A stretch of 56,620 bases of DNA from an uncultured Bacteroidota bacterium (GTDB taxonomy: Bacteria; Bacteroidota; Bacteroidia; Bacteroidales; P3). The notes under the pieces were generated by a model, which did not search any database, was not told the DNA's origin, and saw only the letters and a program-made list of their open reading frames with translations. Made by a program: the position numbers and the translations under genes. Below are positions 5,009-56,127 of the stretch, one piece after another. Numbering within the stretch: position 1 is the stretch's first letter; each line of letters begins with the position of its first letter. Location: NCBI GenBank assembly GCA_902776365.1, contig CACYPU010000011.1, forward strand, positions 1 through 56,620, in the 5' to 3' direction.

Positions 5009-5097
5009 TTGTACGTTATTTGTACGTTATTTGTCCGATACTTGTACGATAAATCATCGTACAAGTATCGGACAAGTATCGTACAACGAACGGACAA
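5009..5097. repeat. 11-base-period array forming a 20-bp hairpin
   Basis: Units of 11 bases lead in: TTGTACGTTAT twice (5009-5030), TTGTCCGATAC (5031-5041), then TTGTACGAT. After a five-base turn the complement follows: ATCGTACAA, GTATCGGACAA, GTATCGTACAA, CGAACGGACAA (5056-5097). The inner arms 5031-5050 and 5056-5075 are perfectly complementary over 20 bp. It sits between the TonB-C gene and the purM promoter. There is no T-tract, so it is not an ordinary terminator, though it may stop or protect transcripts. Confidence 0.9.
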
Positions 5098-5130
5098 ATG
5101 TTTAATTCAGAGGGTATTTGATAACTTTAT

Positions 5131-5161
5131 TTTGCCAGTTCGTAAAAAGTTCGTACTTTTG
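5131..5161 (+). promoter_or_regulatory. Promoter of purM
   Basis: TTTG at 5131-5134, a 19-base gap and TACTTTTG at 5154-5161 match the Bacteroidota consensus. The start of transcription would lie near 5168, immediately before the heptamer array. Confidence 0.88.
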
Positions 5162-5171
5162 CATTTCATGT

Positions 5172-5206
5172 AACGGTTAATGGTTAACGTTTAACGGTTA
5201 AAGATT
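5172..5206 (+). repeat. Heptamer array forming the purM 5' leader
   Basis: Five 7-base units in a row: AACGGTT, AATGGTT, AACGTTT, AACGGTT, AAAGATT. The array occupies nearly all of the predicted untranslated leader, ending eight bases before the purM start. Confidence 0.75.
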
Positions 5207-5214
5207 AAGGAATT

Positions 5215-6387: not shown

Positions 6388-6485
6388 TTTTTTTCATCGT
6401 TATGCAATAAAAAAAATGCACCTCCGTTTTTAGGATGCATAATGCGACTTCGTGGCCAGTTCACTCCATGTTGGTCGTGCACTAA

Positions 6486-6558
6486 GCGACAATAGCTCAG
6501 TTGGTAGAGCGGCGGCTTCCCAAGCCGCAGGTCGCGGGTTCGAGCCCCGTTTGTCGCT
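6486..6558 (+). tRNA. tRNA-Gly (anticodon CCC)
   Basis: Complete cloverleaf. The acceptor stem GCGACAA pairs with TTGTCGC (6551-6557), and T6558 is the discriminator base. The D arm is GCTC-AGTTGGTA-GAGC. The anticodon arm GCGGC-TTCCCAA-GCCGC gives anticodon CCC. The T arm has the GTTCGAG loop. CCA is not encoded. Confidence 0.96.
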
Positions 6559-6562
6559 CTTG

Positions 6563-6597
6563 GAAATTGAAAATTAAAAAATGGGAATTGAAATTAT
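6563..6597. repeat. A-rich heptamer array after tRNA-Gly
   Basis: Five degenerate 7-base units (GAAATTG, AAAATTA, AAAAATG, GGAATTG, AAATTAT) begin five bases after the tRNA. The units resemble those found inside folK (43741) in sequence as well as in period. Confidence 0.6.
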
Positions 6598-6608
6598 CAG
6601 GACTTTGT

Positions 6609-6639
6609 TTTGATAGTTTCTTTTTTTTTCGTAATTTTG
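6609..6639 (+). promoter_or_regulatory. Promoter of the yitT-glycosyltransferase operon
   Basis: TTTG at 6609-6612, 19 bases, TAATTTTG at 6632-6639. It is followed by a leader of about 45 A/T-rich bases to the start at 6692. Confidence 0.88.
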
Positions 6640-6691
6640 CAAATTTAAAGTATAATTATATATTTACTAAATAAAAAAAAATAAGAGAGTT

Positions 6692-9365: not shown

Positions 9366-9370
9366 AGGAA

Positions 9371-15245: not shown

Positions 15246-15661
15246 AACGAATTGAGATTATCAACGGACCGAATCTGAACCTCACGGGACTGCGTGAACC
15301 CGAGGTTTACGGTACTTCGACCATGGAGGACTGCCTCGACGCCCTGCGCAAACAGTTCCCTGAAGTGGAAATCGGTTACTATCAAAGCAATGTCGAGGGA
15401 GAACTTATCGACCATATCCAGCAGGTGGGCTTTTCCGCCGACGGTCTGATTGTCAACCTGGGTGGCTACAGCCACACCTCCGTGGCCCTGCGCGACGCCC
15501 TTCTGGCAGTCACCGCCCCTGTCATCGAGGTCCATCTCTCCAACATCTTCGCCCGTGAGGACTATCGCCACCACTCCCTCATTACCTCGGCCTGTCGTGG
15601 TATGGTCTGCGGTCTCGGCCTTCGTGGCTACGAGTTGGCCCTACGGGATTTGATTTCTTAG
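15242..15661 (+). CDS. aroQ: 3-dehydroquinate dehydratase, type II
   Basis: Converts 3-dehydroquinate to 3-dehydroshikimate, step three of the shikimate pathway. The 139 residues are the normal size for the dodecameric type II enzyme. The start IEIINGPNLNLTGLREPEVYG contains the Arg and catalytic Tyr of the lid loop. NLGGYSHTSVALRDAL gives the substrate-binding His. EVHLSNIFAREDYRHHSLI carries the second catalytic His. It is coupled to the upstream peptidase gene through an ATGA overlap. The stop codon lies inside a 10-base-period repeat array. Other shikimate-pathway genes in the window (aroK, DAHP synthase) are distant. Confidence 0.97.
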   Translation: MKRIEIINGPNLNLTGLREPEVYGTSTMEDCLDALRKQFPEVEIGYYQSNVEGELIDHIQQVGFSADGLIVNLGGYSHTSVALRDALLAVTAPVIEVHLSNIFAREDYRHHSLITSACRGMVCGLGLRGYELALRDLIS

Positions 15662-15694
15662 GTTCTCCTAGGCTTTCCTAGGCTATCTTAGAAC
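15655..15694. repeat. 10-base-period array spanning two convergent stop codons
   Basis: Four 10-base units: TTCTTAGGTT, CTCCTAGGCT, TTCCTAGGCT, ATCTTAGAAC. The aroQ TAG (15659-15661) lies in the first unit and the panC stop (15688-15690) in the last, so the array covers both ends of a convergent gene pair. CCTAGG is palindromic. No T-tract is present. Confidence 0.75.
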
Positions 15695-16578: not shown

Positions 16579-16589
16579 ATCTTAATTAT

Positions 16590-16620
16590 CATTTTTCTTT
16601 TTCTCAATTTTCAATTTCCT
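16590..16620. repeat. Short heptamer array at the 3' end of the holin-like gene
   Basis: Two identical units TCAATTT (16604-16610, 16611-16617), with a T-rich, less exact stretch to their left. On the minus strand the repeat encodes the last residues of the holin-like protein and its stop, then runs into the space before panC. Confidence 0.45.
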
Positions 16621-20402: not shown

Positions 20403-21002
20403 ATGTACGAATATTTTGAAGGAAAACTGGCATCATTGGAACCTACGCAGGCAGTTGTAGACTGTGGTGGCGTAGGCTATCTGCTGGAGATTACACTGAA
20501 TACATACGAGGCATTGCGGAAAGGCGATGCTGCTCGAGTGAAGCTCTATGCCCACTTTGCGGTGCGCGAGGATGCGCAGCAGCTATATGGCTTCTATGAC
20601 ATGGCCGAGCGCGAGATGTTTCGTCTGCTGGTGGCAGTGAATGGTGTGGGCAACCAGACGGCCAGGGTGATGCTGTCGTCGCTGACAGTGGACGAGTTGC
20701 GGACTGCTATTCAGACACAGGATGTCAAGAAGGTGCAGCGAGTGAAAGGTATCGGTGCAAAGACGGCACAGCGGATTGTATTGGAACTCGCCGATAAGAT
20801 GGGAGTGATGAGTTCGGGGTTCGGAGTTCGGAGTTCGGCGACGAATACGCAGGCACGCGACGAGGCCATGACGGCGCTGACGATGCTGGGGTTCCCGAAG
20901 GCTGCGGTGGAGAAGCTGCTCACGGCGTCGGACTGGCGACATGAAGACGGTAGCGAGATGACAGTGGAAGAAATTGTGAAGGAAGGATTGAGGCGCCTAT
21001 GA
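20403..21002 (+). CDS. ruvA: Holliday junction helicase subunit RuvA
   Basis: RuvA binds Holliday junctions and loads the RuvB motor for branch migration. At 199 residues it has normal size. The OB-fold domain is at 1-63 (MYEYFEGKLASLEPTQAVV). The two helix-hairpin-helix motifs follow (LLVAVNGVGNQTARVMLS and RVKGIGAKTAQRIVLELADK). The C-terminal RuvB-binding three-helix domain begins near residue 152 (RDEAMTALTMLGFPKAAVEKLL). The flexible linker at residues 137-146 is made of a perfect four-unit heptamer repeat, so repeat DNA has become part of a conserved protein at its most tolerant site. sprA follows, and I recall this order in other Bacteroidota. Confidence 0.97.
   Translation: MYEYFEGKLASLEPTQAVVDCGGVGYLLEITLNTYEALRKGDAARVKLYAHFAVREDAQQLYGFYDMAEREMFRLLVAVNGVGNQTARVMLSSLTVDELRTAIQTQDVKKVQRVKGIGAKTAQRIVLELADKMGVMSSGFGVRSSATNTQARDEAMTALTMLGFPKAAVEKLLTASDWRHEDGSEMTVEEIVKEGLRRL
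20811..20838. repeat. Heptamer array inside ruvA
   Basis: Four 7-base units AGTTCGG, GGTTCGG, AGTTCGG, AGTTCGG in frame, encoding SSGFGVRSSA in the RuvA linker. Only one base deviates. Confidence 0.92.
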
Positions 21003-31635: not shown

Positions 31636-33321
31636 ATGCTGACAAACTTACATATTGAAAACTATGCGTTAATCCGCGAAACTGATGTCTCTTTTGGACC
31701 GGGATTCGTGGCCATCACGGGCGAGACGGGCGCCGGCAAAAGCATCATGCTTGGAGCTCTCGGCCTGCTGCTGGGACAGCGTGCCGATACCGCCGTGCTG
31801 GCCGACAAAGGGCGCAAATGCGTCGTCGAAGCCCGCTTTGATATCTTGGGTTTAGGCCTGCAGCCTCTCTTTGAAGAGGCTGATGTCGACTACGACGACC
31901 TCCTCATCCTCCGCCGCGAAATCCTCCCTGCAGGTAAGAGCCGTGCATTCGCCAACGATACCCCCGTGCAACTGCCTTTCCTCAAGGCGTTGGCTCCGCG
32001 CATCATCGATATACATTCCCAGCACCAGACCCTCACTCTTGCCGACAGTCATTTTCGCCTCTCCCTCCTCGACACACTAAACACTAAACCCGTAACACTA
32101 AACACTTATCGAGACACTTATCAAGAATATACAGCCCTCAAGCGCGAGTTGGAGGAACTGACTTCCACCGAAGCCCGGAACCGTCGCGATGCCGACTACC
32201 TGCAGTTTCAGTACGACGAACTCGTCAATGCCCAGTTGGGCGTAGCCGTCGGCACCGCCGACGGGCAACCCGACGAGCAGACCCTCCTTGAGCAAGAATC
32301 GCAACTCCTGGCACATGCCGAAGCGGTACGCGATGGCCTTTCCGAGGCGGCGACACTGATGGACGACGAAGCGGGACAAGCCGTTCTGCCGCGTCTGCGC
32401 CAGGCCAAAACATCGCTGTCGCACATCGCCGCCTACCATCCCGACGCCGAGGTACTCCTGGCTCGCATCGACTCCTCCCTCATCGAACTTGACGACATCT
32501 GTGACGAGTTGCAGCATACTGCCGCCGGCGTGACCTACAGCCCCGAGCGGCAGCAGCAAGTCGACGAGCGTCTGGCTCTCCTTTACCGTCTCGAGAAGAA
32601 ACACGGTGTCGACAACCTCGCGGCGCTCATCGCCGTACGCGACGCACTTGATGCCCGCCTGCAGTCCATCTCTTCACTAGATGAGCGTATACAGAGCCTT
32701 ATGGAGCAGGTCGACAGTGCTTTCGCTAAACTGCAGACCGCTGCCGACGCCCTCACCGCCTCGCGCCGTAAGGCTGCCAAGTTGTTCTCCGACGGCATCC
32801 TGCCCACGCTGCACGACCTCGGCATGCCCGAAGCACGATTCAGTGTCGAGCTCACTCCCACCGCCACCTATGGCCCCTCAGGCCACGACTCCGCCGCATT
32901 CCTCTTTAATGCCAACCGCGGTGCTGAGTTGCGCGACATCGCCAAGGTGGCCTCTGGCGGCGAACTTTCGCGTCTCATGCTTGCCATCAAGAGCATGCTC
33001 ACCAGCCACTCGCTGCTGCCCACCATTATCTTCGACGAAATCGACACTGGTGTCAGCGGCGACATCAGTGTGGCCGTGGGTACCATAATGAAGCGCATGG
33101 CCGAAAATATGCAGGTCATCGCCATCACCCACCTGCCGCAGATAGCAGCCAAGGCAGCGCAGCATATGAAAGTCTACAAAGAGACCGAAGTTGACCATAC
33201 CGTCTCGCTTATCCGCCAGCTTACTCCCGACGAGCGCATCACCGAAGTCGCCACCATGCTCTCATCCGAGCCTCCGACCGCTGCCGCCCTCCAAACCGCC
33301 AAAGAACTGATGGGAAAATGA
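31636..33321 (+). CDS. recN: DNA repair protein RecN
   Basis: SMC-like ATPase of recombinational double-strand break repair. The 561 residues have the Walker A GETGAGKSIMLGALGLLLGQ at about residue 29, a coiled-coil middle (about 165-380), the ABC signature VASGGELSRLMLAIK near residue 437 and Walker B TIIFDEIDTGVSGDIS near residue 466. HSQHQTLTLADSHFR is the conserved head block near residue 130. Residues 147-158, between head and coiled coil, are encoded by a heptamer repeat (NTKPVTLNT). Going by remembered family lengths, the array replaces rather than lengthens this linker. The gene follows sufS by two bases and overlaps aroK by ATGA. Confidence 0.97.
   Translation: MLTNLHIENYALIRETDVSFGPGFVAITGETGAGKSIMLGALGLLLGQRADTAVLADKGRKCVVEARFDILGLGLQPLFEEADVDYDDLLILRREILPAGKSRAFANDTPVQLPFLKALAPRIIDIHSQHQTLTLADSHFRLSLLDTLNTKPVTLNTYRDTYQEYTALKRELEELTSTEARNRRDADYLQFQYDELVNAQLGVAVGTADGQPDEQTLLEQESQLLAHAEAVRDGLSEAATLMDDEAGQAVLPRLRQAKTSLSHIAAYHPDAEVLLARIDSSLIELDDICDELQHTAAGVTYSPERQQQVDERLALLYRLEKKHGVDNLAALIAVRDALDARLQSISSLDERIQSLMEQVDSAFAKLQTAADALTASRRKAAKLFSDGILPTLHDLGMPEARFSVELTPTATYGPSGHDSAAFLFNANRGAELRDIAKVASGGELSRLMLAIKSMLTSHSLLPTIIFDEIDTGVSGDISVAVGTIMKRMAENMQVIAITHLPQIAAKAAQHMKVYKETEVDHTVSLIRQLTPDERITEVATMLSSEPPTAAALQTAKELMGK
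32074..32108. repeat. Heptamer array inside recN
   Basis: Five 7-base units ACACTAA, ACACTAA, ACCCGTA, ACACTAA, ACACTTA in the recN coding sequence, encoding the TLNTKPVTLNTY linker. The array is AT-richer than the surrounding gene. Confidence 0.82.
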
Positions 33322-36954: not shown

Positions 36955-37020
36955 AAATCTTACCCAAGTAAGGGTTAAGTAAGAGAGGGGTAAGAGAAAA
37001 GTAAGAGTTGAGTAAGAGTT
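36955..37020. repeat. Six-unit 11-base-period array
   Basis: Exactly 66 bases = 6 x 11. The first unit AAATCTTACCC (36955-36965) is in inverted orientation, and five direct units follow: AAGTAAGGGTT, AAGTAAGAGAG, GGGTAAGAGAA, AAGTAAGAGTT, GAGTAAGAGTT. It lies between divergent genes, about 100 bases from the pepP start and 170 bases upstream of the adhesin promoter. Confidence 0.88.
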
Positions 37021-37191
37021 GGTGTCTTTTAGGTGTTGATTTACAGTGTTTTATGTAAAAAGTATGTTAAAAAGCATAAAGCACTGATTGCGAGTATGTT
37101 GTGTTTTTATGTCGTGTAATTTTAACAATTTTTTAACAATTTTTGCGGGAAGAGAATGATGGAATAGTGAATAGTAAAAAATGTTAAAGTG

Positions 37192-37286: not shown

Positions 37287-40200
37287 ATGAAGAAGTTTCT
37301 ACAAACTTTGATGCTTGCGGCGGCCATGCTGCTGCCGTTTGTATCCCAGGCGCAGAATACGTTGACCTTCGATTTCGAAGACGGCCTAATTCCCAGCGAC
37401 TGGACCAACAACTCCACCAACCCTTGGGTGGTGACAAGCACTTCTCAGAACAGTGGACATCAAGGCACTTACTGCATTATGAGCGGTAACGCCGGCGTTT
37501 CCAGTTCCCAGTCGTCTATCTCGGCGACCTTTACCTTCGCCGGCGACGGTTCCATCAGTTTCCTTGCTGGTATCTTCGGCGAGGGTACCTCCTCTGTTTG
37601 GGACCATTGCACCTTCAAGATTGACGGGCAAGTGATGTTTGACTATGGTGCCCGTGGCACCTGGGAGGTCTACTCCTTCGAGTTGGAAGCCGGCACCCAC
37701 TCCTTCGAGTGGTTCTACGACAAGGACGGTTCCGTGAACCCCACTGGCGATGCTTTCTATCTCGACAGCATCGTTGTTGACCTCGGTACCGCTTCGGGTT
37801 GTCCCCGTCCTAGTGTCATCACTGTCAGCAATGTCACTGGTACCACTGCTACCATCAGCTGGACTGCCGGTGGCACTGAGACCTCCTGGAATGTCTATCG
37901 CGACAGCGTGTTGGAGGCTAACGTCTCCACTCCTTCCTATTCCTTCACCGGCCTTTCCGGCGAGACCACTTACAATGTGGCCGTCGAGGCCGACTGCGGC
38001 AGCGAACAGTCCAACTGGCGCACTACCACCTTCACTACCGGTATCACTTGTCCTGCTCCCACAGGCCTTGCCGCCGTGCTTACCCCCGGCGACGGCACTG
38101 TGGCTACGCTGAACTGGCATGAGACCGGTACCGCCACTGCTTGGCAGATTTGGTTCAGTGGCGACACCACCAACTATATCGATGTCTATGACACCACCTA
38201 CACCTTCACCACCCTCACCCCCGAGACCGCTTACACCGCCAAGGTCCGCGCCATCTGCGATGTCGACGACCTGAGCGCTTGGAGCAGCACCATCACCTTC
38301 ACCCCGACCAACGCCTATCTGATTACCGTGAACGATGGCACCACCACCAACGGCTATGTGCCGATTTATGGTTTCTATTGTGACGATATCACCAAGAGCC
38401 AGTTTATCATTCCTGCCGCCGACCTCACAGCTTTGGTGGGTGGCACGATTACCAAGCTCACCTTCTACGCCAGTCAGGCCAGCGTTAACTGGGGTGCTGC
38501 CGAGTTCAACGTCTATCTGACCACCACCAGCGAGACTGGTGTTGCTACCCTTGCCGATTATACCACGATGACCCAGGTGTATGCCGGCAGCCTCTCCATC
38601 AGCGAAAACAAGATGGAAGTCAACATGACCACTCCTTTCGTCTATGCGGGTGGCAACCTGATGGTTGGTTTCAAGCAGACCGTCGAAGGTTCCTATGTTT
38701 CCAGCAGCTGGTATGGCGTCACTGCCGAGGGTGCTTCCATGGGCGGTTATGGCAGTTCCATCAGCCAGCGTAACTTCTTGCCCAAGACCACCTTCAATTT
38801 CGTTCCCGCCGGTACCGATGTTTGTATGCCTGTGGCTAACCTGACCGTCAGTAACATCACCGTCGATGGTGCTACCTTGAGCTGGACAGGCACTGCCAGC
38901 AGCTACACCATCTACGACCTCTCCGACACGACGACTGTGGCCACCGTTTCCGACACCTCCTACACCTTCACCAACCTTGATGCTATGACCCTGTACAACT
39001 TCGGCGTGGTTGCCAACTGTTCTGGTGACCAGAGCATCATGATGACTGTGTCCTTCAGCACCCCCTGTGTTGCCGCGACATTGCCCTTCACCGAGACCTT
39101 CGAGGCCACCAGCAGCACACTGGCTTGCTGGACCACCGATGGCCCTGGTAACTGGACCGTTGGCACTGGCGACTACAGCACCTCTACCGGTGCCTTCGAA
39201 GGTAGCACCAACGCCCAAATCAACCATAGCTCGACCGGTAACGCTACCAAACTCATTTCGCCCGTTCTTGATGGCGTTGTGAATGGCATGACTCTCGACT
39301 TCGCTCACATCCAGCGCGCTTGGAGTGGCGACCAGGATGAACTCCGTGTTTACTATCGTGCCGATGCCGACAGCGCATGGATCCAGGTTGCCGAATATTC
39401 CAACGAAGTGTCTACTTGGACGGTTGAAAATATTGTTATTCCCGGTACTGTCTATCAGGTTGCCTTCGAGATGACTGACGGCTACGGCTACGGTGTCGCT
39501 ATCGACAGCGTTGTGTTTACCGAAATGGGCGACAGCTACTGTTACACTGTTACTGACTTGGCCGTCGACAGCGTCACCAGCAGTAGCATTTTCCTCTCTT
39601 GGAACGACAACAACAACACTGGTGCCACCTATAGCATTTATGGTGCCGATGGTTCGGTTATTGCCTCAGGCATCTCCACCACCAACTATGAAGTAACTGG
39701 TCTGTTAGCCAGCACCAGCTACACCTTCGGCGTGGTCGCCAACTGCTCGGCTACCGATGCCTCCAACGTTGTCACTGTCAGTGCCTCCACTACCATCGAG
39801 TGCGCCGGCGGCAGCTGCTTCGTTGAACTCAACGGCGCCGACTCCTACGGCGACGGTTGGAACGGCAATGCCATCAACGTGATGCAGAATGGTAATCTGA
39901 TCGAAACCTTCACCCTCACCGAGGGCGACATCAATAACGCGCATATTACCGTCTGCAGCGGTGCTCCTGTGGTCTTCACCTGGGTTGCCGGCAGCTATCC
40001 CGACGAGGCCAGCTTCGAAATCAAGAATGGCGCCGGCATGGTTGTCTACACTGGTGTTGGTAGCACCAGCATGGCCACTGGCGACACCCTCTTCGTTCTC
40101 AACAACGCTTGCCCGACCTGTCTGCCCGTCACCAACATGACTGTCACCGATGCCACCGAGACCAGCGTGACCATCAGCTGGGCCGGCACCGCCGCCAGCT

Positions 40201-41939
40201 ATAATGTTTACAACGGCACCGCCTTTGTGGCCAACGTCAACACCAACAGCTACACCTTCACCGGCCTCACCACCTCCACCAACTATACCTTCGGTGTCAT
40301 GGCCATCTGCTCGGCTACCGATAGTGCTGATATGGTCACCATTACGACGACGACCTCCTGCAGCAGTGTTGCCATCAATCTGCCCTTCACCGAGACATTT
40401 AATGCCACCAGTGGCAGCCGCAACTGCTGGACTACCGTTGACGGCGATGGCGACGGCTTTGGTTGGAGCACATTATTCAATGGCCTGGATCAGGAAATGA
40501 TGCTCTCCTTCTCCTACGACAACGACAGCTACACAGCCCTCACCCCCAACAACTGGCTTATCAGCCCGATACTGCATTCGACTGCCGGCAGCAATGTGAC
40601 AATGCAATGGAGCGTGGCCGCAGGCGATGATAGTTACTATGCCGAGCATTACGGTGTCTATATCTCCACCACCACCAATGACACCTCCGCCTTCACCCTG
40701 CTACAGGATTGGACGCTGACAAGTGACGCTGATCAGATCATGAACCTTGACCTTTCGGCCTATGCTGGTCAGGACTTCTATGTGGCCTTCCGCCACTTTA
40801 ACTGCACCAACCAGTTTGTGCTGATTCTTGACGATGTACAGATCTACGAAGGTGTCTATGTGCCCGATACGCTCACCGTCACCTTCGCCACCGCTAATGC
40901 CACCATGGGTACCACTATTCCTGCCCCTGGCACCTACCATTACATCTCTGGCGACACGGTGTCGTTCAGCGCTGTTTCTAATGCCGGTTACCGCTTCATC
41001 GGCTGGGGCTGGGATGTCGACGGTGATGTGGACACTTTGGATGCCAGCTATATCTCTGCATCCTTCTCTGCCAACACCTTCATGAGCTATGGTAGCATGA
41101 CCTTCACCGCCCTCTTCGAGGCTGGCAATCCCGACAGCACCACCATCACCTACGCTGTCAACAACCCCGCCATGGGCACCACCACTCCTGCCCCCGGCAC
41201 CTACACCATCTATGTTGGCAGCACCATTGAGGCCTCTGCCACCGCCAATGCCGGCTACTACCTCGATGCTTGGGTCTTGGAGATTGTTCTTGATGGCGAC
41301 GTCTACAGCTCCGACACCCTCTACTCTGACGATCCCGAATTCGAGAATCCCATTAACTTCGGCACCTTGCCGCAGAGCTTCGCCGACTATGGCGCTTCCC
41401 TCGTCATCACCGCTATCTTCGCTGCTGACACTACCGGCCCGGTCGATCCCGATTATATCAATATGACCTTCGCCGTCAACGATGCCACCATGGGCATCAT
41501 TACGCCCAATGGCACTCAGCGTTTGCAGGTGGGTACCGAGTTCACCGTCATTGCCACTCCCGCAGCAGACTGCTACCTTGAGAGCTGGACGCTGACATTG
41601 CCCGATGGTATTTCGGTGACCCTCGACGAGGATGTTCCTCTCTACTTCACCGACACCGTGACGGTCGATATGAACGGTAGTACCCTTACCGCCAACTTCG
41701 CCCGCAACCAGGGTATCGATGATGTCGAGACTGGCGACTTCTCGGTCTACACTCAGAACGACAGAATCTTTGTGAAGGGTGTTGAGAATCTCTCCGTCAA
41801 TGTCTACGACGTCACTGGCCGCTGCGTGAAGAACGTTGCCAAGGCTACTGAGACCGTCGAAGTCACCGTGCCCGCCGCCGGTGTCTACATGGTCAAAGCC
41901 GGCAACTTCGCCGCCAAGCGTGTCGTCGTGCTCCGTTAA
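37287..41939 (+). CDS. Giant secreted adhesin with T9SS C-terminal sorting domain
   Basis: A 1550-residue surface protein. The signal peptide is at 1-22 (ending VSQAQ). Three cleaved-adhesin/MAM-like beta-sandwiches lie near 30-165, 595-750 and 1025-1190 (LPFTETFEATSSTLACW and LPFTETFNATSGSRNCW start two of them; DDVQIYEG ends one). At least five fibronectin type III domains recur with SYTFTGL and TSYTFGVVANCSAT. Three copies of an InlB-B-like repeat follow from 1192 (TFATANATMGTTIPAPGTY, TYAVNNPAMGTTTPAPGTY, TFAVNDATMGIITPNGTQ). The end (1476-1550) is a type A T9SS sorting domain: VNVYDVTGRCVKN, then VPAAGVYMVKAG and KRVVVLR. It resembles the haemagglutinin-adhesin regions of Porphyromonas gingipains without a protease. 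It is probably exported by SprA. Confidence 0.93.
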   Translation: MKKFLQTLMLAAAMLLPFVSQAQNTLTFDFEDGLIPSDWTNNSTNPWVVTSTSQNSGHQGTYCIMSGNAGVSSSQSSISATFTFAGDGSISFLAGIFGEGTSSVWDHCTFKIDGQVMFDYGARGTWEVYSFELEAGTHSFEWFYDKDGSVNPTGDAFYLDSIVVDLGTASGCPRPSVITVSNVTGTTATISWTAGGTETSWNVYRDSVLEANVSTPSYSFTGLSGETTYNVAVEADCGSEQSNWRTTTFTTGITCPAPTGLAAVLTPGDGTVATLNWHETGTATAWQIWFSGDTTNYIDVYDTTYTFTTLTPETAYTAKVRAICDVDDLSAWSSTITFTPTNAYLITVNDGTTTNGYVPIYGFYCDDITKSQFIIPAADLTALVGGTITKLTFYASQASVNWGAAEFNVYLTTTSETGVATLADYTTMTQVYAGSLSISENKMEVNMTTPFVYAGGNLMVGFKQTVEGSYVSSSWYGVTAEGASMGGYGSSISQRNFLPKTTFNFVPAGTDVCMPVANLTVSNITVDGATLSWTGTASSYTIYDLSDTTTVATVSDTSYTFTNLDAMTLYNFGVVANCSGDQSIMMTVSFSTPCVAATLPFTETFEATSSTLACWTTDGPGNWTVGTGDYSTSTGAFEGSTNAQINHSSTGNATKLISPVLDGVVNGMTLDFAHIQRAWSGDQDELRVYYRADADSAWIQVAEYSNEVSTWTVENIVIPGTVYQVAFEMTDGYGYGVAIDSVVFTEMGDSYCYTVTDLAVDSVTSSSIFLSWNDNNNTGATYSIYGADGSVIASGISTTNYEVTGLLASTSYTFGVVANCSATDASNVVTVSASTTIECAGGSCFVELNGADSYGDGWNGNAINVMQNGNLIETFTLTEGDINNAHITVCSGAPVVFTWVAGSYPDEASFEIKNGAGMVVYTGVGSTSMATGDTLFVLNNACPTCLPVTNMTVTDATETSVTISWAGTAASYNVYNGTAFVANVNTNSYTFTGLTTSTNYTFGVMAICSATDSADMVTITTTTSCSSVAINLPFTETFNATSGSRNCWTTVDGDGDGFGWSTLFNGLDQEMMLSFSYDNDSYTALTPNNWLISPILHSTAGSNVTMQWSVAAGDDSYYAEHYGVYISTTTNDTSAFTLLQDWTLTSDADQIMNLDLSAYAGQDFYVAFRHFNCTNQFVLILDDVQIYEGVYVPDTLTVTFATANATMGTTIPAPGTYHYISGDTVSFSAVSNAGYRFIGWGWDVDGDVDTLDASYISASFSANTFMSYGSMTFTALFEAGNPDSTTITYAVNNPAMGTTTPAPGTYTIYVGSTIEASATANAGYYLDAWVLEIVLDGDVYSSDTLYSDDPEFENPINFGTLPQSFADYGASLVITAIFAADTTGPVDPDYINMTFAVNDATMGIITPNGTQRLQVGTEFTVIATPAADCYLESWTLTLPDGISVTLDEDVPLYFTDTVTVDMNGSTLTANFARNQGIDDVETGDFSVYTQNDRIFVKGVENLSVNVYDVTGRCVKNVAKATETVEVTVPAAGVYMVKAGNFAAKRVVVLR

Positions 41940-43597: not shown

Positions 43598-44103
43598 TGA
43601 ACAGAGTGACTCTTCTTATCGGCGGCAACGAGGGCGACCGCGCGCTGCTGATAGATCAGGCGACAGAGCAGATACGGCAACGTATCGGCTCTGTCGTTGC
43701 TTTGTCGAGTGTCTACGAGACCGAACCCTGGGGCAATTTTGAAATTGAAAATTCAAAATTCAAAATTGAAAACTTCCTGAACCGCGCCCTGCTGGTGGAG
43801 ACCACGCTCTCCCCCTGGCAGGTGCTGCGCACCGCGCTGGCAATAGAAAAAGACCTCGGTCGTGTGCGTCCCCACCTTTCACCTTTCACATTTCACCTTT
43901 CATCTCGATTTTATCACTCCCGTCCGATGGACATCGACATCATCTTCTACGACGACCTTGTCCTCGACACCCCCGAACTGACCCTGCCTCACCCCCGGAT
44001 GCACCTGCGACAATTCGTCCTCGAACCCCTGGCGGAAATCATGCCGGATTATGTGCATCCCACCCTCCAAAAATCCATTACACAACTGTTGCATGAGATA
44101 TAA
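43597..44103 (+). CDS. folK: 2-amino-4-hydroxy-6-hydroxymethyldihydropteridine pyrophosphokinase (HPPK)
   Basis: Transfers pyrophosphate from ATP to the pterin alcohol in folate synthesis. The 168 residues keep the family core: LLIGGNEGDR at the N terminus, LSSVYETEPWG near residue 38, FLNRALLVETTLSPWQVL, EKDLGRVRPH near residue 88, RPMDIDIIFYDDLVLDTPEL with the two metal-binding Asp near residue 110, and LPHPRMHLRQFVLEPLAEI. Two loops are built from heptamer repeats: EIENSKFKIENF (residues 49-60) and HLSPFTFHLSS (residues 93-103). The second lies in the mobile loop before the metal site. It overlaps the TonB receptor gene by 11 bases. Confidence 0.95.
   Translation: MNRVTLLIGGNEGDRALLIDQATEQIRQRIGSVVALSSVYETEPWGNFEIENSKFKIENFLNRALLVETTLSPWQVLRTALAIEKDLGRVRPHLSPFTFHLSSRFYHSRPMDIDIIFYDDLVLDTPELTLPHPRMHLRQFVLEPLAEIMPDYVHPTLQKSITQLLHEI
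43741..43775. repeat. Heptamer array 1 inside folK
   Basis: Five 7-base units GAAATTG, AAAATTC, AAAATTC, AAAATTG, AAAACTT in frame within folK, encoding EIENSKFKIENF. It is sharply AT-rich within a GC-rich gene. Confidence 0.9.
43874..43901. repeat. Heptamer array 2 inside folK
   Basis: Four 7-base units ACCTTTC, ACCTTTC, ACATTTC, ACCTTTC in frame, encoding most of HLSPFTFHLSS. It is the second array in the same short gene. Confidence 0.9.
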
Positions 44104-46547: not shown

Positions 46548-47552
46548 ATGAAAAAAGTTGCACATATTGTTTTTTTATTTTTCATTTTTCTTTTTTCGTT
46601 ATTCATTTCTTCCTGCGAGAAAATAATTGATATCGAGAACGACCCATCGAAGGCACAGCTGGTGCTCAACGCGGTGCCGACGGTGGATAAGCAGGCGTTC
46701 GTCTATTTCGCCTACACAAGTTTCTTCCTCGATACGTCGAACAATCAGCCGGTATCCGATGTCAGCATGACGCTCACCGTGAATGGCGTCCCGTATTCGA
46801 CGCCCGACTCGGTGGTCAAATGCAATTATTTCTTCCCCTACACCTATGCCGAGGGCGACAGCCTGACGATAGATGTCAACGCTGGTGGTCGCTCCGTTCA
46901 CGCGCACACCTACGTGCCCTTCCTGCCGACCCTCAGCAACCTGCAGTTGCTCAACAACGAGTATGGCTCCACGTTCCGCTACTACTTGGCCGACTTCGAC
47001 TTTCAGGACCATGCCGGTCAGGAGGAATACTATAACCTCGCCCTCACAGTGCGCGACAGCGGTGTCCGCTTCAACGAGTGGAATCAGAAATTCGACACCG
47101 TGGACACAGTGCATACCTCCTATTTCATGCTCCGCACCAATCCCGAGATTACGGGCAACGCCTCCAACTCCGTCCCCATGTTGGGCTACCTCTACACACG
47201 CAACCTCTTCCGCGATTCCGAAATCGACGGACAGAACTACCATGTGAGCATGCGTATCCTGCACTTGGTGGACACCAACGAGGTGCAACCCTTCAAACAC
47301 GAATACACGGTGACGCTGGAATCGGTGACGCCGGCACGTTACCGCTACATTATCGATGTGTCGCGACAGAACTCGTCGGGCGGCTTCTTCAGTGAGCAAG
47401 GGCAGGTGAGGGGCAACGTCGAGGGCGCCCTGGGTATTTTCGCAGGCAGCGCCAAGTGCGAATTTACCTTCTGGCCCGACACGCTGACAATGGCCCCAAT
47501 GTCCTCCCCAGCACCCCCCAGCACTCCCTCTGTATTGTCTCGCACTCCCTAG
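46548..47552 (+). CDS. DUF4249 lipoprotein, partner of the TonB receptor
   Basis: A 334-residue lipoprotein: hydrophobic leader, then FISSCEKIIDIE, with the lipidated Cys near residue 23. The mature part has the DUF4249 pattern (LVLNAVPTVDKQAFVYF, then a Thr/Val/Asn beta domain VSMTLTVNGVPYSTPD, and AHTYVPFLPTLSNLQLL). Such proteins sit beside TonB receptors and probably cap or assist them, much as SusD does. Two repeat arrays touch it. A T-rich heptamer array encodes the hydrophobic core of the signal peptide. The final 16 or so residues (SSPAPPSTPSVLSRTP) are read from the first half of a 10-base array, so its natural C terminus may have been replaced. Confidence 0.88.
   Translation: MKKVAHIVFLFFIFLFSLFISSCEKIIDIENDPSKAQLVLNAVPTVDKQAFVYFAYTSFFLDTSNNQPVSDVSMTLTVNGVPYSTPDSVVKCNYFFPYTYAEGDSLTIDVNAGGRSVHAHTYVPFLPTLSNLQLLNNEYGSTFRYYLADFDFQDHAGQEEYYNLALTVRDSGVRFNEWNQKFDTVDTVHTSYFMLRTNPEITGNASNSVPMLGYLYTRNLFRDSEIDGQNYHVSMRILHLVDTNEVQPFKHEYTVTLESVTPARYRYIIDVSRQNSSGGFFSEQGQVRGNVEGALGIFAGSAKCEFTFWPDTLTMAPMSSPAPPSTPSVLSRTP
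46577..46611. repeat. T-rich heptamer array in a signal-peptide coding region
   Basis: Five degenerate units: ATTTTTC, ATTTTTC, TTTTTTC, GTTATTC, ATTTCTT. They encode Phe/Leu/Ile-rich residues of the DUF4249 leader. Because hydrophobic leaders are T-rich anyway, the periodicity is less certain than in other arrays. Confidence 0.55.
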
Positions 47553-47600
47553 CACTCCCCAGCACTCCCTCGCACTCCCTCGCACTCCCTCGCACTCCCT
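47501..47600. repeat. 10-base-period array at the DUF4249 gene end
   Basis: About ten 10-base units over 100 bases. The clearest run is CGCACTCCCT, AGCACTCCCC, AGCACTCCCT, then CGCACTCCCT three times (47541-47600). Degenerate units (GTCCTCCCCA, GCACCCCCCA, GCACTCCCTC) precede it. The first half is translated as the end of the DUF4249 protein, and the stop at 47550-47552 falls inside the array. One unit (TGTATTGTCT, 47531-47540) is unlike the others. Confidence 0.9.
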
Positions 47601-47632
47601 AGAGTCTTCTCATGAAGAAAATGAAAAAATAT

Positions 47633-48387: not shown

Positions 48388-48400
48388 TATTCTCAGTTGA

Positions 48401-48462
48401 TTGTTTAACCATTGTTTAACCATTTTTGATGGTTAAACAATGGTTAAACAATGGTTAAACAG
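48401..48462. repeat. 11-base-period inverted array
   Basis: TTGTTTAACCA twice (48401-48422), a seven-base spacer TTTTTGA, then the exact complement TGGTTAAACAA twice (48430-48451) and a third copy ending in G (48452-48462). The inner arms form a perfect 22-bp hairpin. It lies between the rpmA terminator and the end of the convergent DAHP synthase gene. Confidence 0.93.
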
Positions 48463-48489
48463 AGGTTGAAAATGCAGAGATAGAGGCGG

Positions 48490-51380: not shown

Positions 51381-51391
51381 TTTTTTTTTTT

Positions 51392-51412
51392 ACCTTTCAA
51401 TTTTCATTTTTT
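51392..51412. repeat. Possible short heptamer array upstream of metK
   Basis: Three 7-base units, ACCTTTC, AATTTTC, ATTTTTT, just upstream of the metK -7 element. The number of units is too small and the composition too simple to be sure. Confidence 0.35.
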
Positions 51413-51415
51413 TCG

Positions 51416-51423
51416 TATCTTTG
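51416..51423 (+). promoter_or_regulatory. Promoter -7 element of metK
   Basis: TATCTTTG is a perfect -7 box. The -33 slot about 19 bases upstream is T/C-rich but not TTTG. The transcript would start near 51430, exactly before the riboswitch. Confidence 0.75.
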
Positions 51424-51432
51424 CATCCGCAA

Positions 51433-51484
51433 TGTGGATAGATTTGTAATGATTGCAACCACTTGAAAAAATGCTAAAGCACTA
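51433..51484 (+). promoter_or_regulatory. SAM-II riboswitch upstream of metK
   Basis: The leader contains the conserved SAM-II elements in order: P1 strand GTGG (51434-51437), GATTTG (51441-51446), TTGCA (51453-51457), P1 complement CCAC (51459-51462), an A-rich segment, and GCTAAAG (51473-51479). The published SAM-II consensus has GTGG, GATTTG, TTGCA, CCAC, a TAAA-type segment and GCTAAA in the same order and spacing. Binding of S-adenosylmethionine would repress metK, the SAM-producing gene. A separate hairpin, ACTGTTAA/TTAACAGT (51515-51522 with 51532-51539), lies between the aptamer and the start codon and may be the expression platform. Confidence 0.85.
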
Positions 51485-51555
51485 ATTCAACGGCAATTTC
51501 AGTACAATCTTTTCACTGTTAAAACAAAGTATTAACAGTTAAAAGTAATGTAATT

Positions 51556-52815
51556 ATGAGTTATTTTTTCACTTCAGAAAGTGTTTCAGAGGGCCATCCC
51601 GACAAAGTGGCCGACCAAATCAGCGATGCGCTGCTTGACGAATTCCTCCGCCGCGACCCCGAGAGCCACGTGGCTTGCGAGACGCTGGTGACCACTGGCC
51701 TCGCCGTCGTCAGCGGCGAGGTGACCTGCAACGGCTGGGTCGACATCCAAGAGACCGTCCGCGATGTCATCAAGGAGATTGGCTACACCAAGGGCGAGTA
51801 CAAGTTCGAGTCGGAGTCCTGCGCCGTGCTCTCTACCATTCACGGCCAGAGCGGCGACATCAATCAGGGCGTCAGCCGCAAGAAAGAAGAGGAGCAGGGT
51901 GCCGGCGACCAAGGCATGATGTTCGGCTATGCCTGCAACGAGACGCGCGAGTACATGCCGCTGCCCATCACGCTGGCCCATATCTTCCTTATGGAGCTTA
52001 CCAAGATACGCAAGGAGGGCAAGGTGATGACCTACCTGCGTCCCGACGCTAAGAGTCAGATTACCATCGAATACAGCGACGACAACAAGCCGCTGCGTGT
52101 TGACACCATCGTGCTCTCGACCCAGCACGACGAGTTCGACAGCGAGCGCAAGATGCTGAAACAGATAGAGAAGGACGTGCGTGACATACTCATCCCGCGT
52201 GTGCTCAAACGTATCAACGCCAAGAATCGTGCCCTCTTCGCCAAGAAGGACTACAAACTCTTCGTTAACCCCACAGGCAAGTTCGTCATTGGTGGTCCCC
52301 ATGGTGACACCGGCCTCACGGGCCGCAAGATTATCGTCGACACCTACGGTGGTCGCGGTGCCCACGGTGGTGGTGCCTTCAGTGGGAAAGACCCCTCGAA
52401 GGTCGACCGCTCGGCGGCTTATGCTACGCGTCATATCGCCAAAAATATGGTCGCCGCCGGTCTCTGCGACGAGGTGCTCGTGCAGGTGGCTTACGCCATC
52501 GGTGTGGCCGAGCCTGTTGGATTCTATGTGAATACTTATGGCACGGCTAAAGTGAAAATAACCGATGGCGAGATAGCAAAGAGGGTGGAAAAACTTTTCG
52601 ACATGCGTCCTTTCGCCATCACCCAGCGTTTCGGCCTCAAGAATCCCATCTACCGTCGCACCGCCGCCTACGGCCACATGGGTCGTGACCCCAAGGAGGA
52701 GACCGTCATCCTCTATGACGCCGAAGGCCGCAAGCACACCAAGAAGGTCCAGCTTTTCGGCTGGGAGAAACTCGACATGGTCGACGCAATAAAGAAAGAA
52801 TTCAAACTGAAATAG
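51556..52815 (+). CDS. metK: S-adenosylmethionine synthetase
   Basis: Makes SAM from methionine and ATP. The 419 residues are slightly longer than the E. coli enzyme. The N terminus has [20 protein letters not shown] (ATP/methionine site His). [14 protein letters not shown] is the flexible-loop motif near residue 117. [20 protein letters not shown] lies near residue 257 and [19 protein letters not shown] near residue 272, both conserved catalytic blocks. The gene is preceded by a SAM-II riboswitch, consistent with feedback control. pdxJ starts two bases after its stop. Confidence 0.98.
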
Positions 52816-52816
52816 A

Positions 52817-53551
52817 ATGACTAAGTTAAGTGTCAATATCAACAAGGTTGCCACCATTCGCAATGCTCGTGGTGGCAACACTCCTAATGTCAAGCAGTTC
52901 GCTATTGATTGTGAGCGCTTCGGCGCCCAGGGCATCACAGTGCATCCGCGTCCCGACGAGCGCCACATCCGCTACGCCGACGTCTATGACATCAAGCCCA
53001 TCATTACCACGGAGTTCAACATTGAGGGAAATCCTAAGGGTGTCTCCAAAAGTAAACCCTATGGATTCATCGACCTCGTCAAGGAAATCCGCCCCACCCA
53101 GGTGACTCTCGTGCCTGACGCCGAAGGTGTTCTTACCTCCAACGCCGGCTGGGATACCGTTACACATCAGGACTATCTGAAGGACATTGTCAAGGAGTTC
53201 CAGGCTTGTGGTATCCGTGTCAGCATTTTCATCGATGCGAACCCACAGATGATACAGATGGCCGCTCGTACCGGCACCGATCGTGTGGAACTCTACACCG
53301 AGAGCTATGCCAGCCGTTACGCTGATGGCCGTGAGGCAGCAATCAAGCCCTTCGTCGAGGCTGCCCGTGTGGCTCGCGACTGCGGTCTCGGGCTCAACGC
53401 CGGTCACGACCTCAGTCTGGAAAACCTCACCTACTTTCATCAGCAGATTCCTTGGGTAGACGAAGTGAGCATTGGTCATGCCCTCATCTCCGACGCCCTC
53501 TACCTAGGCATAGAAGAGACCATCCACCGCTATCTAGACTGCCTGAAATGA
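52817..53551 (+). CDS. pdxJ: Pyridoxine 5'-phosphate synthase
   Basis: Condenses 1-deoxyxylulose 5-phosphate with 3-amino-1-hydroxyacetone phosphate to give pyridoxine phosphate in the DXP-dependent vitamin B6 route. The 244 residues form a TIM barrel with [18 protein letters not shown] at the start, [18 protein letters not shown] near residue 35 (catalytic His), FNIEGNP (catalytic Glu), [19 protein letters not shown] near residue 95 and [11 protein letters not shown] near residue 193 (catalytic His). The length is normal. It is cotranscribed with metK and coupled by ATGA to the hexosaminidase gene. Confidence 0.97.
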
Positions 53552-56127
53552 AACGTATAGTAGTTGTGTTGCTGCTGGCACTGGGTGTGTCGGCGATGGC
53601 GCAGGAGAACATTAACCTCGGCGTGATACCCACGCCGCAGCGGGTGGAAATGCGCCATTCATCGCCATGCCACCCCAGAAAGTTTAGGGAGATGAAGGTC
53701 GATGCCCTGCCGGTGGATGCCAATATGGAGCAAGCCTACCAGCTGATCATCGAGCCGAAAGGCATCACCCTGAAATACACTTCGGAGCATGGCCTGCAAT
53801 ACGGAAGGCTGACGCTGCAACAGCTTAGAACTATCTATGGGAACGAACTGCCCTGTTGCACCATCACCGACTGGCCGGCCTACCGCTATCGTGGCTGGAT
53901 GGACGACCAGAGTCGCGGCCCCGTGCCGCACGCCGCCTACCGCCAGAAGCAATGGGAGACGCTGCATGCGTTGAAGTTCAACTTCTGCAACTACTACACC
54001 GAGCATACCCTATACCAGCCGGAGTTCCCCGACCTGGCGCCCGCTTACCTCGCCGACTGCAAGCCGCATCTCGACGAGGTCATCAACCTCCAGCTCTTCG
54101 CACATGCTGAGAAGACGCTTTGTGTGCCGTATTATCAATATATGATGGACAGCAAGGCTAACTTTAATCCCGACAACGAAGCTACCTACGACTTCTTGCG
54201 CAAGCGTATAGCCGCTGCGTATGAACGCATTCCCACCTCGCCATTCTTCATCATCAACTGCGACGAAACAGAACAACTGGGTACTGGTAGAGCGAAGAAT
54301 TTGGTGGATTCATTGGGTGCTGACCAGGTGTATGTCAACCACATCAACCGCTGCTACGACATTATTAGAGAAGTGGGTAGTGGACAGTGGGTAGTGGATA
54401 GCACACGTGGCCAAATGCTACCAACTACCCACTACCAACTACCCACTCGAATCGTCATGTGGGGCGACATCGTGGCCAAGAATCCGGAGATGATGAAGCA
54501 ACTCCCGCAGGAAATGACCTATATCATGTGGGCCTACGAACCTCTCGACAGCTACGACCACCTGATAAAACCCTTCAAGGACAACGGCACGCCCTTCTGG
54601 GTGGCACCGTCGCTGTCGCATAGCAGCAATATGATTCCTAACCCCTACCGCTACATGAAGAACATCGCCAATCTCGCTCGCGACGGCTGGCGTAATGGTG
54701 CCGAGGGCTTGATGAACACCTGCTGGGACGACAACGGGGAAGCTCTGTTTGACAACTGCTGGCATGGACTCTTCTGGAGTGCCGAGATGGCCTGGAACCC
54801 CATCAAGACCGACGACCCCGAGGAGTTTGCCCGTCGCGAAAAGCAGTTCAACGAGAACTTTGCTCGACTCTTCTATGGGGACAAGAATAGGGTCAATGTC
54901 AATAGCCTATATGAGATGGGTGCCCTCGAAAGCGATCCGCTAATTGGCGACTGGTACACTTCGGCCGCCTTGATGGAGCCCCTCCTCAACATCAATCCCG
55001 ACAACACTGGTGAGGAAATGCAGCAAAGGATAGACCATGTGATGCATCTGGTGGATACTTTCTATGTCGACTCTGCTGCCAATCCGCATGTCCATTATGC
55101 TTTGATGCGTCTGAAGGCCACTGCCGAGAAGTGTGCCCTTCGCAAGGATATCCCTTGGCAGCTTCGGGGAGGTGTTGTCTACCCTGACGTGAAAGGCGAC
55201 TGCCAACTTTACCTGAAGACCCTCTTTAACCTCAAGCGAGAGTACCTCCGCCTCTGGGATCAGGAAAACGGCGACTATGAGCGTTATATAATATTAAATA
55301 GATACGACGCGCTCGCGCGTGAAGTGCTGGAGCTTGACAGACATGTCTTTATGCCAGTAGGGATGCAGCGTGTTGCGTCCGCTATCGCGGAGGTGTTTGT
55401 GGACACAGCATGCCGTGTCCCTATTGTAGCGCTGCGGACGATATATGATGACCGGGATATCTACTACACCCTCGATGGCTCCGAGCCCACCGCCTCCTCC
55501 ACCCTCTATGAGGGTCCCTTCCCACTGGAACGTTCCGCCACCATCCGTGCCATCACCTATAACGACTACGGCGAAGGTGTCATCAGCGAACAGTACCTCC
55601 TCTCTCATCTCGGCATGGGTGCCAAAATCAAACTTAACACCCCCTTCTCCACTTACAAGGCTATTTACAGTGGTGGCGGCGCGAATGCCCTCATCGATGG
55701 GCAGTTGGGCTCTAATACCACCTACGCCGATGGTCACTGGCAAGGATACTGGGGCGACAGTATCGACGCGATTATTGACTTCGGTATGCCCAAGACTGTG
55801 CATGAGGTGAGCATGCGTTTCATGCAGAACACCTTCGACTGGATTCTGGCACCGAAATGGATTAAGGTTTATGTATCGGACAACGGTAAAGACTGGAAAC
55901 TAATGAATCAAATGCACTACGATATGGATCCCCGCGAGACGGGAATGCGGCTAAGACATTATAATGTGGAACTGGGCATTTTAGACATTACCAACCAAAT
56001 TTATGTGGACCAACCCACCACCCGTTACCTCCGTGTTGTTGTTCCCAATCCCGGACCGCTGCCAGAGTGGCATCCCGCTCCCGGACAACCCTCTTACCTC
56101 TTCACCGACGAAATCGTTGTCCACTAG
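53548..56127 (+). CDS. GH20-type beta-N-acetylhexosaminidase with C-terminal accessory domains
   Basis: An 859-residue exported glycosidase. The signal peptide is at 1-18 ([13 protein letters not shown]). A GH20 N-terminal alpha/beta domain covers 20-110 ([12 protein letters not shown]). A TIM-barrel catalytic domain from about 118 opens with [19 protein letters not shown]. The acidic pair lies in [12 protein letters not shown] near residue 238, in place of the usual DE in [16 protein letters not shown] and [12 protein letters not shown] follow. Residues about 630-690 form a chitobiase/FN3-type domain ([19 protein letters not shown]) and 700-859 an F5/8-type (discoidin) carbohydrate-binding domain. 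A heptamer inverted repeat lies inside the barrel at residues 275-300. The predicted substrates are GlcNAc- or GalNAc-terminated glycans, such as mucin or peptidoglycan sugars. It is coupled to pdxJ by ATGA. Confidence 0.87.
54372..54447. repeat. Heptamer inverted repeat inside the hexosaminidase gene
   Basis: The left arm has AGTGGGT, AGTGGAC, AGTGGGT, AGTGGAT (54372-54399). A 20-base spacer follows, then the right arm ACCAACT, ACCCACT, ACCAACT, ACCCACT (54420-54447). The arms are complementary over about 28 bases with a few mismatches. Both arms and the loop are translated ([13 protein letters not shown], then [10 protein letters not shown]), giving a probable in-frame insertion of about 20 residues before the MWGDI strand of the GH20 barrel. 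Confidence 0.93.

Follow-up and report, generated by a model that had tools for sequence, protein, structure and literature searches.

Short-unit tandem arrays are scattered through the genome of an uncultured Bacteroidota bacterium (Bacteroidales, P3; assembly GCA_902776365.1), a gut-type organism represented by 18 contigs and 2,230,681 bases, of which bases 1–56620 of contig 11 (CACYPU010000011.1) form the stretch analysed here, hereafter the window. The arrays hold about four units whatever the period and belong to the kind described as long simple sequence repeats with units of 5–11 nt (LSSR5-11) or as short tandemly repeated repetitive sequences (STRR). Two classes are apparent, since arrays of period 7–10 lie in genes and 5' leaders and arrays of period 11 form a separate intergenic class, often with hairpins. 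The best fit for such arrays turning over within a genome is the copying of blocks between loci, combined with slippage under selection, to which we assign a probability of roughly 0.45. The RecN protein of this genome is 69–77% identical to those of 19 metagenome-assembled genomes of uncultured Bacteroidales (L051–L069), many of which carry a rumen or reticulum label.

A first-pass annotation of the window had listed arrays of 7 or 10–11 nt period at 15 positions (54372 and 54420 taken as one), and Tandem Repeats Finder (TRF, minimum score 30) recovered 14 of them with a period of the listed class. The exception was 51392, and an array of period 11 at 37120–37144 had been overlooked. A stricter detector (match +1, mismatch −2, score at least 12) found six arrays of period 7, six of period 11 and one of period 10 in the window, where 10 dinucleotide-preserving shuffles yielded 0.0 for every one of these periods, so the arrays are real. 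Two weak heptamer cases listed at 6563 and 16590 fell below the stricter threshold, namely an array after tRNA-Gly (6560–6593, TRF score 33 only) and an AATTTTC array (16584–16618, TRF score 31). The ACACTAA array in recN (32074–32106, +; TRF) also failed it because its third, middle unit has diverged. A 10-mer CCTAGG array in the convergent gap between the DHquinase_II gene and the next gene (15654–15691) scored 11; it looks like a decayed real array because the orthologous gap of relative G117 carries a clear 10-mer array with the same CCTAGG unit.

The genome-wide excess over shuffled sequence that the first-pass annotation had anticipated is real and larger than first described. A sample of 856,620 bases (38% of the genome; score 13), drawn non-randomly from contigs that were long enough, contained 372 arrays, whereas three shuffles gave 6 arrays of any period, and a chance origin is rejected. 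By period there were 167 arrays of 7, 26 of 8, 31 of 9, 18 of 10, 49 of 11, 10 of 12, 20 of 14 and 7 of 16 nt, with 4 of period 6 or less and 40 others. Periods 7–11, together with the multiples 14, 16, 20 and 22, account for 319 arrays and 1.29% of the sample, which extrapolates to about 831 arrays in the whole genome.

Copy number is narrow at every period. Heptamer arrays measured 29–33 nt (4.1 to 4.7 units) in 106 of 187 cases and at least 48 nt in six, and the lengths of the 8-, 9-, 10- and 11-mer arrays peaked at 31, 40, 41, and 34 and 42–43 nt, respectively; the lower side of this distribution is shaped by the detection threshold, and the thin upper tail is not. The four-unit peak stands out in genic arrays (67 of 97 at 28–34 nt) and is broader in intergenic ones (56 of 121), as counted at a lower threshold. 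In three families the phase at which arrays start and end was non-random, with p values of 4e-8 and 5e-8 for ACCCACT (n=23), 5e-7 and 3e-4 for AAAATTG (n=23), and 2e-4 and 0.02 for AAAGGTG (n=34).

Units are shared between loci, contrary to the earlier claim that each locus has its own. AAATTGA ×3 was matched exactly 24 times, overlaps included, at 17 genomic places (reversed control 0), and the 187 arrays of period 7 or 14 include families of AAAGGTG, AAAATTG, ACCCACT and AAGAATT. Recurrent longer units are AACGCATT/AACACATT among the 8-mers, AAACCCTTT among the 9-mers, AAGGGAGTGC among the 10-mers, and AAAGAACAATG, AAACAATGGTT, TTGTACGATAC and GTAAGAG types among the 11-mers. Outside arrays the longer words are nearly absent: of six 11-mer and two 10-mer words, seven had 0 copies and one had 1 copy in 457 kb, with TTGTACGATAC, ATGAAAGAACA and AGTAAGAGTTG all at 0. 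ACCCACT occurred 45 times outside arrays, and 45.9 copies were expected in all.

Placement separates the classes. With genes called by a home-made hexamer gene finder rather than a standard annotator, the genic share was 90/187 for 7-mers, 17/33 for 8-mers, 10/31 for 9-mers and 10/18 for 10-mers, compared with 0/50 for 11-mer arrays (0/35 loci); arrays thus occur in both intergenic and coding DNA, as first described. Intergenic arrays of the shorter periods were concentrated within 40 nt upstream of a start codon (42/97 7-mers, 9/16 8-mers and 13/21 9-mers, against 0.15 for random placement), and this was the case for 1/8 10-mers and 0/50 11-mers. A stem score of at least 14 was reached at 16/35 11-mer loci, 5/171 7-mer, 0/29 8-mer, 0/34 9-mer and 1/17 10-mer loci. 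The single window-wide family of the first-pass annotation therefore does not stand, as 7-mers and 11-mers differ in location, hairpins and species-specificity.

Among the 11-mers, the ACAATG family occupied convergent gaps at 8/12 loci compared with 29/344 gaps (p 2.4e-6; locus C2:164581, which carries ACAATG words and was binned as "other", is excluded), and the TAAGAG family divergent gaps at 4/6 loci (p 0.013). Members of the GTACG hairpin family seem to be copies of a single element about 90 bp long, because the members examined have the outer letters, the loop and the 3' edge in common. In the window, a hairpin element of (TTGTACGNTAN)4, AATC and about four inverted units lies between tandem genes at 5009–5097 (TRF, detector and hairpin scan), and its family has 9 loci in the sample. 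An ATGGTTAAACA hairpin array occupies a convergent gap at 48400–48474, beside a terminator-like hairpin with a T-run. The stem scores of these two elements are 27 and 24; the fold-back of the 54372/54418 pair has a loop of about 19 nt, which the loop limit of the hairpin scan excludes, and is visible in the sequence. All three fold-backs, as well as the inverted first unit of the GTAAGAG array at 36955–37021 (TRF, detector), had been described correctly. That array shares its divergent gap with the TTTTAACAATT array at 37120–37144 (TRF, detector). Downstream of both lies the gene of a large protein (37287–41936) with fibronectin type III and Cleaved_Adhesin domains and a weak match to a Por secretion tail.

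The shorter periods are represented by a TTAACGG array ending 7 nt upstream of the start of an AIRS-domain gene (5171–5208, +; TRF, detector), a TTTTTCA array (46571–46608, +) that, depending on the choice of start codon, lies either at the 5' end of a DUF4249 gene or directly ahead of it, and a 10-mer GCACTCCCTN array overlapping the 3' end of that gene (47504–47602, +; TRF, detector), whose unit is missing from the aligned stretch in 7/7 relatives. Inside genes, a GAGTTCG array in ruvA (20810–20838, +) encodes residues 137–146, between the HHH_5 (73–131) and RuvA_C (151–199) domains. Fourteen of 18 genic ACCCACT arrays encode LPTTHYPLPT variants in one register, 2 use another register and 2 the other strand. 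AGTGGGT and AAAATTG repeats have stop codons in every register and their complements have none, which accounts for most of the genic strand bias. The AAGAATT arrays were intergenic in 28/28 cases.

Orthologs were found for 8 of 78 array-bearing genes, and several of the relatives' stretches were picked around folK; the collinear relatives G117, G096 and G002 are 79–80.5% identical to this genome over the aligned parts. The folK gene carries ATTGAAA ×4 at site 1 (43742–43772, +; detector) and CACCTTT ×4 at site 2 (43873–43902, +; detector), both of which probably correspond to mobile loops of the HPPK structure. Between the anchors of site 1 there are 61 nt both here and in G117, filled by ATTGAAA ×4 in the former and GAGGAAA ×4 in the latter, and the same 61 nt hold ACGGAGA-like, ATTGAGA-like and GTGGAGA-like units in G080, G047 and G098, respectively. 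Alleles without an array measure 46 nt (G096, G009), 49 nt (G097) or 67 nt (G022), and G002 has a different insertion (172 nt). This genome and G117 agree at 19/33 positions by hand count, and their shift-7 self-similarities are 0.85 and 0.77; the unit differs in parallel across all four copies. At site 2, CACCTTT here and ACACCTT in G117 each lie within 60 nt, G097 has 39 nt and three heptamers fewer (1.7 CACCTTT units compared with about 4.3), and G002 carries a 9-mer array within a 93 nt segment.

A similar pattern was seen in a gene with Glyco_hydro_20b and Fn3_assoc domains (GH20-type), where an inverted pair of ACCCACT-family arrays (54372–54398 and 54418–54447, +) lies in frame within 106 nt. 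The site is 43 nt without an array in G009 and G008, 64 nt with AAAGTGG in G117, 61 nt with CTCTCCA in G002 and 118 nt with a different insertion in G022. The lengths 43 (empty), 64 and 106 nt at this site, and 39 and 60 nt at FolK site 2, differ by whole heptamers in frame (+21 or +63). In ruvA, GAGTTCG is present here and in G022, AGTGGAG in G002, a 9-mer in G096 and no clear heptamer in the others. In recN, ACACTAA is found here and, among nine relatives compared, only G004 was heptameric (GCGAGCG); a second comparison gave GGAGGTC in L062 and a 9-mer in L066. In L050 (G002 folK site 1), L101 (G022 GH20-type gene) and G096 folK site 2, the same loops hold further in-frame insertions, partly G+C-rich palindromes, that are reminiscent of the Rickettsia palindromic elements.

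A wider set of FolK alleles was collected by a regular expression, which leaves orthologs without the motif uncounted. Among 32 distinct allele pairs, site 1 was 18, 21, 24, 27, 33 and 144 nt long in 7, 9, 1, 2, 12 and 1, respectively. The twelve 33-nt alleles had a mean shift-7 identity of 0.65 (at least 0.6 in 9/12, with differing units), compared with 0.26–0.39 at other shifts and 0.25 in the flanks, and seven 42-nt alleles of site 2 gave 0.60 at shift 7 and 0.56 between species. The earlier notion of a conserved period with changing units thus holds between species at the same site and fails within the genome, where units are common to many loci.

Words are also favoured by particular genomes. 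Among 11-mer units alike to within one mismatch, 76/90 like pairs fell within one genome (15.7 expected; maximum 31 in 2000 label shuffles), and among exact heptamer units 56/145 did so (27.4 expected; maximum 55 in 2000 shuffles). For this test the genome under study was limited to 40 arrays per class, because it would otherwise dominate, a limit that affected the heptamers only. The 11-mer units are strongly genome-specific and the heptamers partly so. Searches for CACTNNC ×3 and TTTCANN ×3 each matched 21/21 genus genomes (1 to 140 and 4 to 146 matches, respectively) and 0/3 genomes of other families; a control with the reversed patterns gave high counts in several genomes but cannot serve as a null, since those words too belong among the heptamers of the genus. 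Among the matches listed (5 of 91 for G117), pure favourites were CACTTTC in G047 (20/40), CACTCTC in G007 (23/51) and CACTGCC in G010 (6/16); G002 had CACTCTC and CACTAAC, and G023 had mixtures of CACTATC, CACTGAC and CACTAAC.

The density of arrays of period 7–11 was 37.2 per 100 kb in this genome, 15.7 in 19 genus relatives (182 arrays over some 1,161 kb, with individual genomes ranging from 5 to 35) and 1.8 in nine genomes of other Bacteroidales families (7 arrays in 387 kb), the comparison being noisy from small samples (12–100 kb in the other families, mostly of lower G+C).

What has to be accounted for is the observed distribution, the shared units, the copy number, the genic and intergenic placement, and the presence, absence and unit change at orthologous sites. 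Units shared between loci of one genome are expected from spread or copying between loci and not from a purely local generator; hence the first-pass preference for a generating mechanism over the spread of one element keeps its footing in the unit change between species and loses it within the genome. For the reading we favour, a block of about four units would be copied from an array to another place, or over another array, with microhomology-driven template switching as the possible route, either in replication or in repair synthesis. Whole-unit slippage would then add or remove copies, point mutation would create new unit variants, and repeated copying would make the loci of a genome alike and unlike those of its relatives. 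Selection would set the sites of survival, namely flexible protein loops (in frame and in the stop-free orientation), 5' leaders and gene gaps, with the arrays themselves probably near-neutral. The 11-mers, the second class, are intergenic, reach about 90 bp and often form hairpins; each would spread as a complete element, and those between convergent genes may contribute to transcript ending.

Several observations weigh against block copying. No donor–recipient event was caught among the compared genomes, and nucleotide-clean empty sites could not be shown because the closest relative is only about 80% identical. The model by itself leaves the four-unit number unexplained. At FolK site 1 the offset from the usual alleles that lack an array is 15 or 12 nt, and the G002 GH20-type site differs from the empty site by 18 nt; none of these is a whole number of heptamers. 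Over the twelve FolK site-1 alleles, the unit-to-unit identity of 0.65 is barely above the 0.61 between species; averaged over all FolK alleles the parallel-change signal is weak, and decayed alleles are common. Heptamers allowed one mismatch paired within genomes in 117/516 cases, which is not significant (96.8 expected, maximum 144). Phase was not significant for AAGAATT (0.28, 0.11, n=28), AAAAATG (0.12, 0.12, n=12) and AAACTTT (0.45, 0.45, n=9), and two shorter words exceeded expectation outside arrays (GCACTCCC 24 vs 9.7, AATTGAAAATT 4 vs 0.3). The 32/56 heptamer words that occur once in the sample support independent local slippage.

Such slippage, in which each array grew in place from a short seed with the polymerase favouring 7 nt, appears rather unlikely as the general explanation. 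It would suit the dominance of heptamers, as in other bacteria, the 21-nt step of G097 at FolK site 2 and the many heptamer units common to species, with 89/145 exact like pairs joining different genomes. It fits poorly with identical units at unrelated loci of one genome, with 11-mer words that are near-absent outside arrays and genome-specific, and with a copy number near four that shows no steady fall-off. MutS was matched in 24/24 genomes searched (above the cut-off in 23, below it in G021), so its loss is not the cause and the loss of mismatch repair is rejected; the scarcity of periods of 6 or less would be in keeping with a mismatch repair that works.

An unlikely alternative is that selection maintains the arrays as binding sites or as signals in RNA leaders, the 7–9-mers acting in 5' leaders and the 11-mers at transcript ends or nucleoid sites. 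The crowding of 7-, 8- and 9-mers upstream of start codons and the placement of ACAATG and TAAGAG in convergent and divergent gaps argue for it, whereas about half of the heptamers lie inside genes and the GTACG family showed no significant preference for tandem gaps (8/9, p 0.46). In addition, the 48400 hairpin is absent in all 7 relatives aligned there, and the terminator-like sequence beside it is kept by several of them (L128, L129, L130, L132); with that sequence already adjacent to the array, termination as the sole function of convergent 11-mers is rejected. In L134 (G010), the place downstream of the DAHP synthase–chorismate mutase gene that holds the 11-mer hairpin in this genome is taken by an array of about 165 bases with 9-mer units of the AAACCCATT type; among the relatives listed, most lack an array there.

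A dedicated writing system is also very improbable; in it a protein with an RNA template, either a telomerase-like enzyme or some other reverse transcriptase, would deposit some four copies of a word set by the template, which varies between species. Equally improbable is its broader form, a telomere-like trans-acting machinery that writes four-copy blocks of a genome-specific word and rewrites hundreds of loci in concert. Within such templated writing, each word length from 7 to 11 letters would have a template or footprint of its own. The narrow copy number, the non-random phase in three families, the genome-favoured words and the change of all four units at constant length between this genome and G117 at FolK site 1 are consistent with it, as is a UG24-class reverse transcriptase in this genome. 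This 1126-aa candidate defence enzyme (L190:11526-14906, −; C3 about 51.5–54.9 kb) contains a 156-aa stretch matching PADLOC RT_UG24 (E 2.5e-58). Against it, many units coexist in one genome and many templates would be needed. RVT_1 was matched in this genome and in only 9/24 genus genomes (8 above the cut-off), with no match in eight array-bearing ones, some of them incomplete (G001, G002, G004, G008, G009, G015, G022, G023), and a reverse transcriptase is rejected as the general cause.

Least probable, and to be given little credence, is a repeat or hairpin instability released by loss of the SbcCD nuclease: SbcD-bearing G016, G018 and G021 are poorer in arrays (26 in 319 kb, 8.1 per 100 kb) than eight relatives without a match (118 in 525 kb, 22.5) and four with a weak match (30 in 249 kb, 12.0), but SbcD-positive genus members still carry arrays, families without above-cut-off SbcD are nearly array-free (G039 0, G026 1.0, G031 0 and G032 1.2 per 100 kb), and the comparison is confounded by phylogeny and small samples. 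Across 16 genus genomes including this one, SbcD (TIGR00619) had no match in 9 and a sub-threshold match in 4, and this shortage in 13/16 is a candidate lineage-specific loss worth checking; the correlation with arrays is loose, and SbcD loss stays a lead rather than an explanation.

In the literature, as cited in PMC4679880 and PMC4692102, Mrazek (2007) described LSSR5-11 as repeats of 5–11 nt units with heptamers most abundant and proposed that 7 nt corresponds to the stretch of DNA that the polymerase grips, an idea related to the first-pass suggestion of templated slippage tied to a protein's footprint. The ten hosts given in these articles as the richest belong to Burkholderia, Cyanobacteria, Actinobacteria and Xanthomonas. 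A preference of bacterial microsatellites for 7 nt has been on record since 2007, and according to a 2015 paper no detailed heptamer work existed (PMC4692102). The present arrays resemble LSSR5-11 as these articles present them, with tandem 5–11 nt units, heptamers commonest and 319 arrays against 6 in three shuffles. Unlike the repeats described there, they keep close to four units whatever the period, lie in frame within housekeeping genes, fall into unit families common to several loci, carry other units at orthologous sites and include a hairpin class of 11-mers set apart from the rest. The GGGNATC and GGGGA(C/T)T heptamers of Xanthomonas and Nostoc are likewise genome-wide, prefer four units and vary between relatives in the same gap, and their four-unit preference has been linked to G-quadruplexes (Rehm 2015, PMC4692102). 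As described there, they are G-rich, quadruplex-tied and strongly non-coding, whereas in the present genome roughly half of the heptamer arrays lie within genes. GGG or CCC occurs in only 3/56 heptamer words (ACCCACT, the common one, AACCCCG and AAATGGG); for the other 53, which have neither, quadruplexes therefore do not explain the four units. TAACTGA direct repeats, reported from Beggiatoaceae, Cyanobacteria and five Bacteroidetes (MacGregor 2015, PMC4679880), are similar in being heptamers often just upstream of start codons, but by that account they differ from the present case, in which many units coexist and arrays lie in genes too. The canonical TAACTGA was not among the unit words of our sample. 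Apart from these repeats in five Bacteroidetes, a literature search that covered few subscription papers found no such arrays described in Bacteroidales.

The arrays can also be set against systems of other kinds. Cyanobacterial STRR heptamers, which are intergenic, had been named as the nearest class; together with LSSR5-11 they are, but the contrast drawn with them by unit sharing falls away, since units are shared here too, and the difference lies in the 90/187 genic heptamer arrays. Repetitive extragenic palindromes and bacterial interspersed mosaic elements (REP/BIME) are dispersed intergenic palindromes that move with the help of a REP-associated Y1 transposase. The hairpin elements among the 11-mers share their dispersed, intergenic placement and reach about 90 bp; unlike REP/BIME they are built of tandem 11-mers. 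Y1_Tnp was matched in this genome (one partial match) and in 17/24 genus genomes but not in G008, G009 and G016 (completeness 88, 95 and 100%), all of which have 11-mer arrays, and a REP-type transposase is rejected as a required cause. A Y1_Tnp match of REP-associated size lies about 140–150 bases from folK in three genus genomes (G001:C17:20970-21302, G004:C5:127839-128171 and G007:C41:28549-28881). DNA uptake sequences, known from the Neisseria dialects with inverted pairs as terminators, share the genome-favoured words, the inverted pairs in convergent gaps and the tolerance in reading frames. Unlike uptake sequences, the 11-mer words show no enrichment of single copies outside arrays, and this reading is rejected.

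The arrays of this genus are thus set apart from the cases described in the cited articles by four units at all periods, in-frame positions within housekeeping genes, units that change at orthologous sites, and a separate, often hairpin-forming 11-mer class with genome-specific words. With about 830 extrapolated arrays in this genome and 120 genus genomes for comparison (this one included), the genus is a dense case, in which the four-unit preference extends to words unable to form G-quadruplexes and orthologous sites keep their length and period while the unit changes. Given this turnover of words at fixed places between species, the arrays appear to be continually rewritten, and if block copying or templated writing is true, it would provide a route for short words through the reading frames of housekeeping genes.

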